Shown here: in pieces, positions 29,538 through 33,641 of the stretch
Layout: each line of letters starts with the position of its first letter
Numbering within the stretch: position 1 is the stretch's first letter
Origin: Sneathiella sp.
GTDB taxonomy: Bacteria > Pseudomonadota > Alphaproteobacteria > Sneathiellales > Sneathiellaceae
Assembly (NCBI RefSeq): GCF_002694385.1
Contig: NZ_NZMB01000012.1
Location: 617,338 to 650,978 of the forward strand
Reading direction: 5' to 3'
Length of the DNA stretch: 33,641 nucleotides
Notes under the pieces: generated by a model
Database searches by the model: none
Seen by the model: only the letters and a program-made list of their open reading frames with translations
Told to the model about the DNA's origin: nothing
Translations under genes and position numbers: made by a program

Positions 29538-30989
29538 TCAGCGCAGCCAGAAGCGGCGCGAGAAAAGCACCAGTACCGTAAAGAGTTCCAGCCGTCCCAG
29601 CAGCATGGCGAGGGACATCATCCATTTGGCGGGATCGGAAAGTGACTGGAAATTCCCGGAAGGCCCGACAATTTCCCCGAGCCCCGGCCCGACATTGGTG
29701 ATGGCGGTTCCGGCGCTTGACAGGGCGGTCACGAAATCAAGGCCGGTCAGGCTGAGACCAATCGTGATCAGGCCAAAGATTGTCAGAAATAGGAAGATGA
29801 AACTCGCGACCGAGGTAATGGTTTCATCCGGCAGGGGGCGGCCATTATAGCGTGGTATGAATATGCCATTGGGGCGAATGATCTGCATCAGACGGCAACG
29901 TAATGTTTCGACAACAATCTGAACACGGAAAACCTTGATGCTGCAGGAGGCGGACCCGGCACAGCCTCCGATAAACATCAGGAAGAAGAAACCCGCCATC
30001 GCGAATCCGCCCCAGGTGCTGTAATCCACCGTGGCGAATCCGGTTCCCGTTATGACGGATGTGACACTGAAGGTCGCCTGGCGTAAGGCGTCCCAGAACG
30101 GTGTTTCATTACGGAAAATCTGCCAGCAGACCATTATGAAAATACTGAACAGGATGAGCGACAGAAACCAGCGGATCTGGCTGTCCATCAGGAAGCTGCC
30201 CGGCTTGCCCTTGACGAAATGCAGGTACATCAGGAAAGGCATGGCGCCCATGATCATGAAAACGACCATGATGCTTTCCACCAGCGGGTTATCGAACAAC
30301 CCGGCTGATTTGTCGGAAGTGGAAAAGCCGCCGGTCGAGATGGTGGTCATGGCGTGATTGACGGCTTCAAACAGGCTCATGCCCGCCGCCCACAGAGCAA
30401 GCACGCAAATCATGCTGAGGGTGAGATAGATATAACCGATGGCCTTGACGATATCACCGACGCGCGGCAGCATTTTTTCCGATGAAGCGTCGGATGACTC
30501 CATCCGGAAAAGCTGCATGCCGCCGACGCGTAGCAGCGGCAGGATGGAAATCGCCATGACGATAATGCCGATCCCGCCGAACCATTGCAGTAACGAGCGC
30601 CAGAGCAGGATGCCGGGCGGGGTGTTGTCAAGTCCGCTCAGGATCGTGGCACCGGTGGTTGTCAGCCCGGACATGGTTTCAAAAAACGCATCGGTGAAGG
30701 AAATGTCGAGATTGCCGAACATCAGTGGCAGGGCAGCGGCGGCGGGCATGACAATCCATGCGGCAGTTGTCAGAATGAAGGCCTGCCTGCGGTCCAGCAG
30801 CAGGCCGCCACCGCGATTGGAGAGATACAGACCGCCGCCAATGAACAGAAGTATTGCCGCCGAGATGAGAAAGACCTGCCAGTCCGTGTTGCCGGCTATC
30901 AGATCAACAGCAGCAGGAATCAGCATTGCCCCGCCGACGAATACGAGCAGAATGCCAAGGATGGTGAGGATCAGGCGAAAGTTGATCAC
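29538..30989 (-). CDS. trkH: Trk-type potassium uptake protein TrkH
   Basis: Membrane subunit of the Trk potassium transporter. The 483-residue protein has about ten to twelve helices and the repeated pore-loop elements with selectivity glycines: TMSGLTTTGATI (about residues 105-116), TTISTGGFST, SVTSVITGTGFATVD and SSAGTAITNVGPG. It begins with GTG, 13 bases after the folE stop, without a clear ribosome site, suggesting coupling to folE. The regulatory TrkA gene is not in the window. Confidence 0.94.
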   Translation of the reverse strand: MINFRLILTILGILLVFVGGAMLIPAAVDLIAGNTDWQVFLISAAILLFIGGGLYLSNRGGGLLLDRRQAFILTTAAWIVMPAAAALPLMFGNLDISFTDAFFETMSGLTTTGATILSGLDNTPPGILLWRSLLQWFGGIGIIVMAISILPLLRVGGMQLFRMESSDASSEKMLPRVGDIVKAIGYIYLTLSMICVLALWAAGMSLFEAVNHAMTTISTGGFSTSDKSAGLFDNPLVESIMVVFMIMGAMPFLMYLHFVKGKPGSFLMDSQIRWFLSLILFSIFIMVCWQIFRNETPFWDALRQATFSVTSVITGTGFATVDYSTWGGFAMAGFFFLMFIGGCAGSASCSIKVFRVQIVVETLRCRLMQIIRPNGIFIPRYNGRPLPDETITSVASFIFLFLTIFGLITIGLSLTGLDFVTALSSAGTAITNVGPGLGEIVGPSGNFQSLSDPAKWMMSLAMLLGRLELFTVLVLFSRRFWLR

Positions 30990-31002
30990 GAGCGGGTAAT
31001 CT

Positions 31003-31608
31003 TCAGCCTTTGTCGATAAAGGAGAGCAGTTCTCTGCGGGTGATATCCGAGCGTCTGAATACGCCGAGCATGGTGCTGGTCACCATGGTGACGCCATCCT
31101 TATGCACGCCCCGCGTTGTCATGCACTGATGCGCGCTTTCGATAATGACGGCAACGCCCTTGGGTTGCAGGGCCCGTTCGATTGTTTCCGCAATCTGCCG
31201 CGTGAGCTTTTCCTGGATTTGCAGGCGCTTTGCATAGGCGTCCACCACCCGCGCAAGCTTGGAAATGCCGACGACCCGATTGCTCGGCATATAGGCGACA
31301 TGGGCGACGCCGATGATCGGAACCATATGATGCTCGCAATAGCTTTCAACGCGGATATCCTTAAGGACAACCATTTCGTCATAGCCGTTTACCTCTTCGA
31401 AGGTGCGTGCGAGATAGGCGTCAGGGTCTTCATTGTAACCCGCAAAAAATTCAAGGTAGGAGCGGACAACCCGGTCAGGCGTGCCGCGCAGACCTTCCCG
31501 CGCCGGATCATCTCCCGCCCAGCGGATCAGGGTACGGACAGCGTCTTCCGCCTCTGCCTTGGTCGGACGGTCCTTTGCCGGAGTGCCGGGGTGAGTGTGC
31601 TTGTTCAT
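31003..31608 (-). CDS. folE: GTP cyclohydrolase I
   Basis: Converts GTP to 7,8-dihydroneopterin triphosphate, the first step of tetrahydrofolate synthesis (and a source for queuosine precursors). The 201-residue protein has the zinc ligands in [11 protein letters not shown] (Cys and His) and in [10 protein letters not shown], and the GVFRR motif at the C-terminus. It follows apaG and precedes trkH on the minus strand, with short gaps on both sides. Confidence 0.96.
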
Positions 31609-31642
31609 GAGACCTGCTTCCTAACATGTGATGCGCCGCGGA

Positions 31643-32050
31643 TCAGTGAAGAGATGAGATAGCGCCGGGGCTGTCCAGTGAAAAGGCGGGAATATCAACG
31701 GAGAAAAAAGCGCCCGCTTCTTCCTCCATATCATAGCTGCCGACCATAATGCCGGAAGGCGTCGATAGAGGCGTTCCACTGGTATATTCATATGATTCAC
31801 CGGGAGCGAGAACGGGCTGTTCGCCCACAACGCCTTCCCCATCAACTGTTTCCGTGTGGCCTTTGGCGTCCGTGATGCGCCAGTGACGGTATCTGAGGGT
31901 GACCGTTTGCGCCCCCTGATTTTCAATTTTGACCTGATAGGCCCAGACATACAGGCCGTCTTCCGGGCGAGAGCGATCCTGGAGATAAATGGGAGTTACC
32001 GATACCCGAATATTCCGGGTCGTCTTGCTGTAGATGCCGGATGCCATCAT
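31643..32050 (-). CDS. apaG: ApaG domain protein
   Basis: A 135-residue single-domain ApaG protein (immunoglobulin-like beta sandwich) with the diagnostic WAYQVKIENQGAQTVTLRYRHW, VVGEQPVLAPGESYEYTSG and IMVGSYDM segments. Bacterial ApaG has been linked to cobalt/magnesium phenotypes; its molecular activity is unsettled. Two consecutive ATGs at 32050 and 32047 follow a GGAAGGAAATAAG ribosome site; the first is chosen. The open frame upstream of them lacks family similarity. It lies 132 bases after metZ on the same strand. Confidence 0.93.
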   Translation of the reverse strand: MMASGIYSKTTRNIRVSVTPIYLQDRSRPEDGLYVWAYQVKIENQGAQTVTLRYRHWRITDAKGHTETVDGEGVVGEQPVLAPGESYEYTSGTPLSTPSGIMVGSYDMEEEAGAFFSVDIPAFSLDSPGAISSLH

Positions 32051-32208
32051 CTTATTTCCTTCCGCGACCTGCCCGACGGGCCGGGTATTCCCTGAATATT
32101 GCGCCAAGGGACGATTTTGTCCAGTAAATCGGACAGGTCTTTGCGCCAATCACCGGATGGTTGATTGGTTTCTATATGACGCTCAACCGGCCTTCCGGTT
32201 GAGCGCAT
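32047..32208 (-). CDS. Possible small ORF between metZ and apaG
   Basis: A 53-codon frame starts at an ATG inside the end of metZ and ends with TGA overlapping the first apaG ATG (ATGATG), the pattern of translational coupling. The middle (GDWRKDLSDLLDKIVPWRNIQG) looks helical and protein-like, while the first 20 residues are forced by the metZ frame and hairpin. No good ribosome site is visible before the ATG. It may equally be a chance frame in the 132-base metZ-apaG gap. No family recognised. Confidence 0.25.
   Translation of the reverse strand: MRSTGRPVERHIETNQPSGDWRKDLSDLLDKIVPWRNIQGIPGPSGRSRKEIR
32180..32205 (-). other. Perfect 11-bp hairpin spanning the metZ stop codon
   Basis: CGCTCAACCGG and CCGGTTGAGCG pair perfectly around a 4-base loop (32191-32194); the metZ stop TGA (32183-32185) lies within one arm. 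No T-run follows on either strand, so it is not a standard intrinsic terminator. It could stabilise the upstream message or limit read-through to apaG. Confidence 0.6.
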
Positions 32209-33397
32209 ATCCGAGGTCGTCAATGAGATCATCCGCATCTTCAAGGCCGACCGACAGCCGCACCATGCTTTCGGTGATCCCCAGTTCCAGCTTTGTCGCG
32301 TCGCTGACGCTGGAATGGGTCGTTGTCGTCGGGTGGGTCAGCAGAGATTTCGCATCACCGAGATTGTTGCTGATGTCAATCAGCGACAGGCCGTTGATAA
32401 AGGCAAATGTATCTTCCTGATTACCGGCGATCTCGAAGGCGATGAGGGAACCGCCCCGCGACATTTGCGCTTTTGCCAGGGCGTGCTGCGGATGACTTTC
32501 GAGGCCGGGATAGATGACCTTGGCCACAGCGGGATGAGACGCAAGAAAAGCCGCAACCTTTTCCGCATTGTCACAATGCTTCTGGACCCGCAGATCAAGC
32601 GTTTCCAGACCTTTGAGGAGAGTCCAGGCGTTGAAGGGGCTGAGCGCCGGGCCTGTATGCTTGAGATAGGGGGCGAGGGTATCCTCGACAAATTCTTCCG
32701 AGCCCAGAATAATACCGCCGAGACAGCGGCCCTGCCCGTCAATATGTTTGGTGGCGGAATAAACGACAATATCGGCGCCAAGGGAAAGCGGATGTTGCAA
32801 CACCGGCGTTGCAAAGACATTATCAACAATCACCTTTGCCCCAACCTTGTGCGCCAGATCGGAAATGGCGGCGATATCCATGATTTCGAGGGACGGGTTT
32901 GAGGGGGTTTCAAAAAAGACGCAGGCCGTCTTCTCCGTAAGCGCGTTTTTCCACTGATCAATATCGGTGCCGTCGATAAGGGTGATATTGATGCCAAAGC
33001 GCGGCAGAATGGTCTCGATAATATAAAGACAGGAACCAAACAGCGCCTTCGGCGCGACCACATGATCCCCCGCCTTGAGTTGTGACATCAGCGCGCCGTT
33101 GACGGCGGCCATGCCGCTGGCCGTCGCGCGGGCGGCTTCGGCGCCTTCTTCAAGAAGGATCATCCGCTCTTCAAACATCGAAAGGGTTGGATTGGCGTAG
33201 CGGGAGTAGATGAACCCCTCATTCTCTCCCTTGAAACGACCGGCGGCCTGCTCGGCGCTGTCATAGACAAAGCCGGAATTGATATAAATGGCTTCGCTTG
33301 TCTCGTTGAATTGGGATCGTCTGGTTCCGCCGCGGACCAATTTTGTTGCGGTCCGGTATTCTTTCGCGCTTCCCTGCGCTGCTTTTCTATCCGTCAT
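32183..33397 (-). CDS. metZ: O-succinylhomoserine sulfhydrylase
   Basis: Cys/Met-metabolism PLP enzyme making homocysteine directly from O-succinylhomoserine and sulfide. From ATG 33397 the protein has 404 residues. It shows the YSRYANPT motif (residues 64-71), the PLP lysine K217 in YSATKHIDGQGR, and the C-terminal VRLSVGLEDADDLIDDL. Gamma-family relatives (MetB, MetY) are alternatives, but length and the SATKHIDGQGR and THSSVSD segments favour MetZ. The GTG start at 33433 is rejected because it lies in the terminator hairpin; GAAGGTGA precedes 33397. Expression is placed under a SAM-II riboswitch just upstream. Confidence 0.93.
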   Translation of the reverse strand: MTDRKAAQGSAKEYRTATKLVRGGTRRSQFNETSEAIYINSGFVYDSAEQAAGRFKGENEGFIYSRYANPTLSMFEERMILLEEGAEAARATASGMAAVNGALMSQLKAGDHVVAPKALFGSCLYIIETILPRFGINITLIDGTDIDQWKNALTEKTACVFFETPSNPSLEIMDIAAISDLAHKVGAKVIVDNVFATPVLQHPLSLGADIVVYSATKHIDGQGRCLGGIILGSEEFVEDTLAPYLKHTGPALSPFNAWTLLKGLETLDLRVQKHCDNAEKVAAFLASHPAVAKVIYPGLESHPQHALAKAQMSRGGSLIAFEIAGNQEDTFAFINGLSLIDISNNLGDAKSLLTHPTTTTHSSVSDATKLELGITESMVRLSVGLEDADDLIDDLGYALNRKAG

Positions 33398-33416
33398 GTC
33401 ATCACCTTCGAGGCAT

Positions 33417-33444
33417 AAAAAAACCCCGACCATAGATCAGGGTT
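33417..33444 (-). terminator. Intrinsic terminator in the metZ leader
   Basis: On the minus strand AACCCTGA (33437-33444) pairs with TCGGGGTT (33422-33429), with one G-T pair and a 7-base loop, followed by a run of T. It ends about 20 bases before the metZ ATG and after the SAM-II aptamer, so it is the expression platform. Its 5' arm can also pair with a GGTCGGGG copy in the aptamer. Confidence 0.88.
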
Positions 33445-33452
33445 CCTGCGAG

Positions 33453-33513
33453 CCCCGACCTTTTAGCGTTTCTTTTACGTGGCCGCAAGCCGGTCGGCAC
33501 AAATCACCACGGC
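33453..33513 (-). ncRNA. SAM-II riboswitch
   Basis: On the minus strand, stem P1 is CGTGG (33507-33511) with CCACG (33478-33482). The loop carries the conserved TGATTTG and CTTGC elements. The 3' part carries GCTAAAAGG, and the pseudoknot is CCGACC (33492-33497) with GGTCGG (33455-33460). This matches the SAM-II (metA motif) consensus known mainly from alphaproteobacterial methionine genes. It precedes metZ, a typical target, and should turn expression off when S-adenosylmethionine is abundant. Confidence 0.92.
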
Positions 33514-33519
33514 AAAATA

Positions 33520-33546
33520 ATTATCCCTCCCCTTTCGGGCTGTCAA
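33520..33546 (-). promoter_or_regulatory. metZ promoter
   Basis: A perfect -35 TTGACA (33541-33546) and a -10 GATAAT (33520-33525) on the minus strand, 15 bases apart. The spacer is short, but the predicted start at about 33513 coincides with the first base of the SAM-II aptamer, which supports the call. Confidence 0.62.
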
Positions 33547-33596: not shown

Positions 33597-33641
33597 GCGG
33601 GCGTAGCTCAATGGCAGAGCAGAAGCTTCCCAAGCTTACGA
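33597..33641 (+). tRNA. tRNA-Gly (anticodon CCC), 3' part outside window
   Basis: The 5' half of a tRNA is visible: acceptor strand GCGGGCG, D-arm GCTC-AATGGCA-GAGC, and anticodon loop TTCCCAA giving anticodon CCC (reads GGG). The variable loop has just begun when the window ends, so the T-arm and 3' acceptor cannot be checked. Confidence 0.9.

Follow-up and report, generated by a model that had tools for sequence, protein, structure and literature searches.

A SAM-II riboswitch in the metZ leader of Sneathiella, with a pseudoknot strand predicted to double as antiterminator

The metZ leader and its SAM-II aptamer

The 33,641 nt stretch of Sneathiella sp. DNA analysed here (the window) includes, close to its right-hand end, the metZ gene for O-succinylhomoserine sulfhydrylase, identified by TIGR01325 (566 bits, cutoff 510). 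On the same strand, 3′ of metZ, positions 29538-32149 encode an ApaG domain protein, a GTP cyclohydrolase I and a TrkH-type cation transporter. A tRNA-Gly gene (anticodon CCC) at approximately 33597-33641 on the plus strand (1655-1728 in L001) is divergent from metZ and is cut by the end of the window. The features of metZ and its leader are listed below in the direction of transcription.

33541-33546, minus strand: TTGACA, the −35 element of a likely promoter for metZ, with an 18-nt spacer to AATTAT
33517-33522, minus strand: −10-like element, AATTAT or, with a 17-nt spacer, TAATTA, by consensus match only
33443-33520, minus strand: SAM-II aptamer (RF00521, SAM_alpha), Rfam covariance-model match
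33507-33511, minus strand: P1 5′ strand CGTGG, partner of CCACG at 33478-33482, from the Rfam alignment
33492-33497, minus strand: P2 pseudoknot 5′ strand CCGACC, from complementarity to 33455-33460
33478-33482, minus strand: P1 3′ strand CCACG, from the Rfam alignment
33453-33460, minus strand: copy 1 of GGTCGGGG, from sequence; nt 1-6 serve as the P2 3′ strand and all 8 as the antiterminator strand
33435-33444, minus strand: shared arm AACCCTGATC, from pairing; the terminator 5′ arm, of which CCCTGATC is the antiterminator 3′ arm
33424-33431, minus strand: copy 2 of GGTCGGGG, in the terminator 3′ arm, from sequence
33417-33423, minus strand: U-tract (T7) of the intrinsic terminator, from sequence
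33404-33414, minus strand: GCCTCGAAGGT, with a likely Shine-Dalgarno sequence inside (GCCTCGAGG in relatives), from conservation in the genus with small variants
32183-33397, minus strand: metZ, 404 aa, ATG at 33397, from TIGR01325

The match to RF00521, the only SAM-II copy in the genome, scored 67.3 bits (gathering score 36, E 3e-13) and spanned model positions 1-79 of 79, so that the aptamer is full length. P1 (CGTGG:CCACG) and P2, in which CCGACC at 33497-33492 forms six Watson-Crick pairs with GGTCGG at 33460-33455, together make up an H-type pseudoknot. The setting is also that of a SAM-II riboswitch, namely an alphaproteobacterial metZ leader with TTGACA-18-AATTAT just upstream of P1. 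TTGAC(A) is present at about the same position in Sneathiella relatives, and the promoter consensus places the predicted transcription start near the P1 5′ strand. An earlier note, made from the sequence alone, had named this leader a SAM-II riboswitch of metZ, and the covariance score and the identity of the downstream gene bear this out. As a member of the SAM-II family, the aptamer would be expected to bind SAM.

The metZ start codon is similarly placed in relatives. The Shine-Dalgarno segment GCCTCGAGG is conserved with small variants in Sneathiella and is not found in the Oceanibacterium leader L006. This segment, which reads GCCTCGAAGG in the window, is partly palindromic and lies just before the metZ start, and its CCTCGA is able to pair with the TCGGGG of either copy of the octamer.

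Competing pairings of the octamer

The octamer GGTCGGGG was found at 33453-33460 and at 33424-33431. Two occurrences in 33.6 kb, where 1.4 are expected by chance, are unremarkable by themselves. Judged from sequence comparison, the part not due to chance is the arrangement, with the copies 29 nt apart, a common complementary arm between them and both copies exact in 22 of 24 leaders from the order. The parts that the earlier note gave to the two copies hold: copy 1 is the 3′ half of the pseudoknot, and copy 2 belongs to the 3′ arm of a terminator whose 5′ arm lies between the copies. The terminator stem, AACCCTGATC-TAT-GGTCGGGGTT at 33444-33422, has 10 pairs (−12.6 kcal/mol), and AACCCTGA of its 5′ arm is at 33444-33437. 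A T7 run at 33423-33417 overlaps the end of this GC-rich stem and continues past it, completing an intrinsic terminator between the aptamer and the open reading frame. A simple terminator scan missed this hairpin, possibly because the predicted stem runs into the T tract.

Copy 1 (33460-33453) can also pair with 33442-33435 to form the antiterminator. This pairing and its 10-nt loop were as proposed earlier, but the six pairs then counted are in fact eight contiguous pairs, and the hairpin has an energy of −13.4 kcal/mol. It uses the whole of copy 1, including the 6 nt common to P2, together with the terminator arm, and its formation does not have to wait for copy 2. Because six of the eight bases of copy 1 are the P2 3′ strand, P2 and the antiterminator are mutually exclusive. 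This supports a switch that SAM would turn OFF by terminating transcription.

When P2 was omitted from the in silico folds, P1 plus antiterminator at the end of the U-tract gave −34.8 kcal/mol and P1 plus terminator −29.8 kcal/mol; as base pairs made by the U-tract, which would sit in the polymerase, account for part of the −34.8, only the sign of this difference is used. The P2 helix alone contributes −9.5 kcal/mol before pseudoknot cost and ligand. On these figures, which ignore the pseudoknot, magnesium and the polymerase footprint, the modelled energetics are balanced, as needed for a switch.

We consider it likely, with a probability of about 0.82, that the riboswitch represses metZ through SAM-dependent premature transcription termination. 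Transcription would begin just upstream of P1. When SAM is scarce, copy 1 (GGUCGGGG) would emerge free of P2 and form the 8-bp antiterminator with the arm that follows it (CCCUGAUC) while copy 2 is still to be transcribed, so that RNA polymerase would read into metZ. When SAM is bound, P2 (CCGACC:GGUCGG) would hold copy 1 and leave the arm free to form the 10-bp stem with copy 2, and this stem and the U-tract would bring about termination. The OFF direction and the termination itself are those expected from the SAM-II family.

A pairing of copy 1 with the Shine-Dalgarno region (TCGGGGC:GCCTCGA) appears in the lowest-energy fold if P2 is ignored. It was not adopted because it forms only once transcription has passed the U-tract and would hide part of the Shine-Dalgarno sequence when SAM is absent.

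Conservation, control terminators and leaders lacking the U-tract

Of 25 genomes in the order, 24 carry SAM-II. The exact aptamer 32-mer was found in Sneathiella chinensis, S. litorea, S. sedimenti, S. chungangensis and S. glossodoripedis, and also in Oceanibacterium, the other genus of the family. A plasmid search for named relatives returned no match. The two order leaders in which the octamers are not both exact deviate in copy 1 (GGTCTGGG in L007 and AGTCGGGG in L020). Copies 1 and 2 barely vary in Sneathiella, leaving almost no covariation within the genus. In these order leaders the arm is found as CCCTGATC, CCCTGACT, CCTCGACT or, in Oceanibacterium, CCCTGACC, with pairing to both copies kept, and the variant CCTCGA (L004 and L008) likewise still pairs with both.

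L007, from a genome that is 66% complete, is alone among the order leaders in having copy 1 substituted at its centre; its antiterminator pairing is weakened, with an arm duplex of −9.7 kcal/mol rather than the usual −11 to −13.6 kcal/mol or thereabouts. Related leaders that retain the aptamer but in which copy 1 no longer pairs with the arm would, according to the earlier note, speak against the scheme. Within Sneathiella only L007 approaches such a loss. Weak pairing is seen in a sizeable minority of the leaders from outside the order.

The comparison was extended to 132 leaders, made up of those from the order and a class-wide sample of Alphaproteobacteria, and our own scan detected a terminator in 112 of them. 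At least six contiguous antiterminator pairs were present in 51 of 91 leaders outside the order, compared with about 26% of control pairings; this count keeps some misplaced P2 strands (one leader was excluded), so pairing is if anything understated. The remaining 40 of the 91 had five or fewer. The arm is often altered together with P2, as in L069 (GACCGGG/CCCGGTC), L074 (GGCCGG/CCGGCC) and L055 (GGCCGGG/CCCGGCC). Pairing of each arm with its own P2 strand averaged −10.8 kcal/mol, while swapped arms averaged −10.1 and shuffled arms −6.7 kcal/mol. Only 1 of 20000 permutations was as good in the full set and 95 of 20000 in the non-redundant set (n=34), a modest result (p about 0.005 when non-redundant) in which phylogeny is uncorrected and relatedness crudely handled. 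Conservation of the antiterminator is thus seen both in the 22 order leaders identical in the two copies and in the swap test, and it is not universal. On this sequence evidence, the strand-swap design is common, though not universal, across Alphaproteobacteria. The conserved competition and the class-wide comparison both support the proposal in the earlier note that the ligand-sensing strand would itself be the antiterminator of an OFF switch.

The same data bear on whether the terminator might instead be constitutive, with the second copy coincidental and SAM binding not in control. As GGGG/CCCC is frequent in the terminators of these GC-rich genomes, their arms should in any case be complementary to copy 1 to some extent, and the mean energy of pairing between copy 1 and the control arms is −7.8 kcal/mol. 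There is also a precedent in the terminator after the SAM-II aptamer of Sinorhizobium meliloti metA, for which no control by SAM is predicted (PMC9373788). However, only 4 of 106 other terminator-like hairpins, taken as controls from the named loci and the window, reach eight contiguous pairs with copy 1, whereas most riboswitch arms reach eight or nine, and own arms beat both swapped and shuffled ones. We regard a constitutive terminator as very improbable.

The terminator and U-tract are kept in 20 of the 24 order leaders. The four leaders with no U-tract (L014, L018, which is S. glossodoripedis, L019 and L021) form one group in the metZ tree with support of 93/94. All four retain the full aptamer, copy 1, the arm, copy 2 and CCTCGAGG before the start codon, and L014 and L018 have CTCGAG after copy 1, which is able to pair with the Shine-Dalgarno region. 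Predicted pairing of the Shine-Dalgarno sequence in the SAM-bound state was 0.75 in L014 and 0.87 in L018 (0.47 and 0.60 when antiterminated) and 0.55 in L019 and 0.46 in L021 (0.50 in both when antiterminated). In leaders with a U-tract, the SAM-bound values were mostly 0.03-0.37 (0.66 in L005) and below those of the antiterminated state. In this exploratory comparison of four sequences, the folds suggest that some members of the U-tract-less clade may have shifted to controlling translation. The U-tract would have been lost once in this clade; that the strand swap was re-purposed from termination to control of translation within one genus is possible, but doubtful. The clade provides a natural comparison in which the output of a riboswitch might change while its aptamer does not.

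Leaders of this kind, which lack the U-tract and keep the rest, would fit a riboswitch that is mainly translational, with P2 or a downstream structure occluding the ribosome-binding site and the hairpin secondary. Well-studied SAM-II riboswitches (metX, Sargasso Sea) do mask the Shine-Dalgarno sequence in P2 (PMC10907184, PMC9373788). In the window, however, the start codon is more than 50 nt past P2 and has its own Shine-Dalgarno sequence, with a strong hairpin and U7 between. The predicted pairing of that sequence is 0.25 when SAM is bound and 0.39 when antiterminated. An OFF switch would need the opposite, and SAM-bound sequestration of the Shine-Dalgarno sequence was rejected for the window on this sign. 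For the window, we consider mainly translational control very improbable. Dual control, in which SAM-dependent termination is combined with Shine-Dalgarno occlusion in read-through transcripts, draws on the conserved CCTCGA(GG) beside the Shine-Dalgarno sequence, which is complementary to TCGGGG, and on the dual platforms described in PMC2258182. It too appears improbable, as the folds give no SAM-dependent change of the right sign at the Shine-Dalgarno sequence in the window or most relatives.

Comparison with known systems

SAM-dependent termination, the reading preferred here, is not new in kind, as SAM-II riboswitches with terminators have been known since 2005. Corbino et al. (2005; PMC1273637) described SAM-II with terminators after P2, OFF logic and a requirement of P2 for SAM binding. 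In that founding set, which includes Agrobacterium tumefaciens metA (PMC1273637, PMC2258182), the H-type pseudoknot and the need for P2 are as in the class to which the window belongs. As in the window, many terminators lie between P2 and the open reading frame and the promoter is just upstream of P1. The pseudoknot was named there as the interface to the expression platform. The window differs in that its strand swap is set out explicitly and examined comparatively here; the word "antiterminator" is absent from the 2005 text. The earlier note, unsure whether this geometry had been described for SAM-II, was thus looking at a known kind of switch, one whose overall plan had been published before. 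We found no explicit statement in the openly readable literature, supplements aside, that the P2 strand serves as a SAM-II antiterminator, and we make no claim of priority.

Two other metZ riboswitches are close in design. The S. meliloti SAM-II (PMC9373788) shares the aptamer class, the gene and a predicted intrinsic terminator with the window but belongs to a different order. Its terminator is predicted to be SAM-induced, and an RZ RNA of ~100 nt is increased in high-SAM medium. PMC5756330 gives 20-fold coverage of the 5′-UTR over the open reading frame for metZ of Gluconobacter oxydans 621H, and a terminator and antiterminator predicted computationally, citing Millman et al. The aptamer and gene are those of the window, and the likeness of the expression platforms is at the level of the predicted conformations. 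The Bacillus subtilis preQ1-I riboswitch of the transcriptional type (PMC11625349) differs in aptamer, ligand and sequence but is also compact, an H-type pseudoknot whose 3′ portion is shared with an antiterminator, and its ligand favours the terminator.

The metZ leader in the window, in other respects a normal riboswitch, provides a fully readable example of a SAM-II pseudoknot wired to a terminator, a link left implicit by structural work, which has mostly been on translational SAM-II. The comparison shows this wiring recurring in Alphaproteobacteria.
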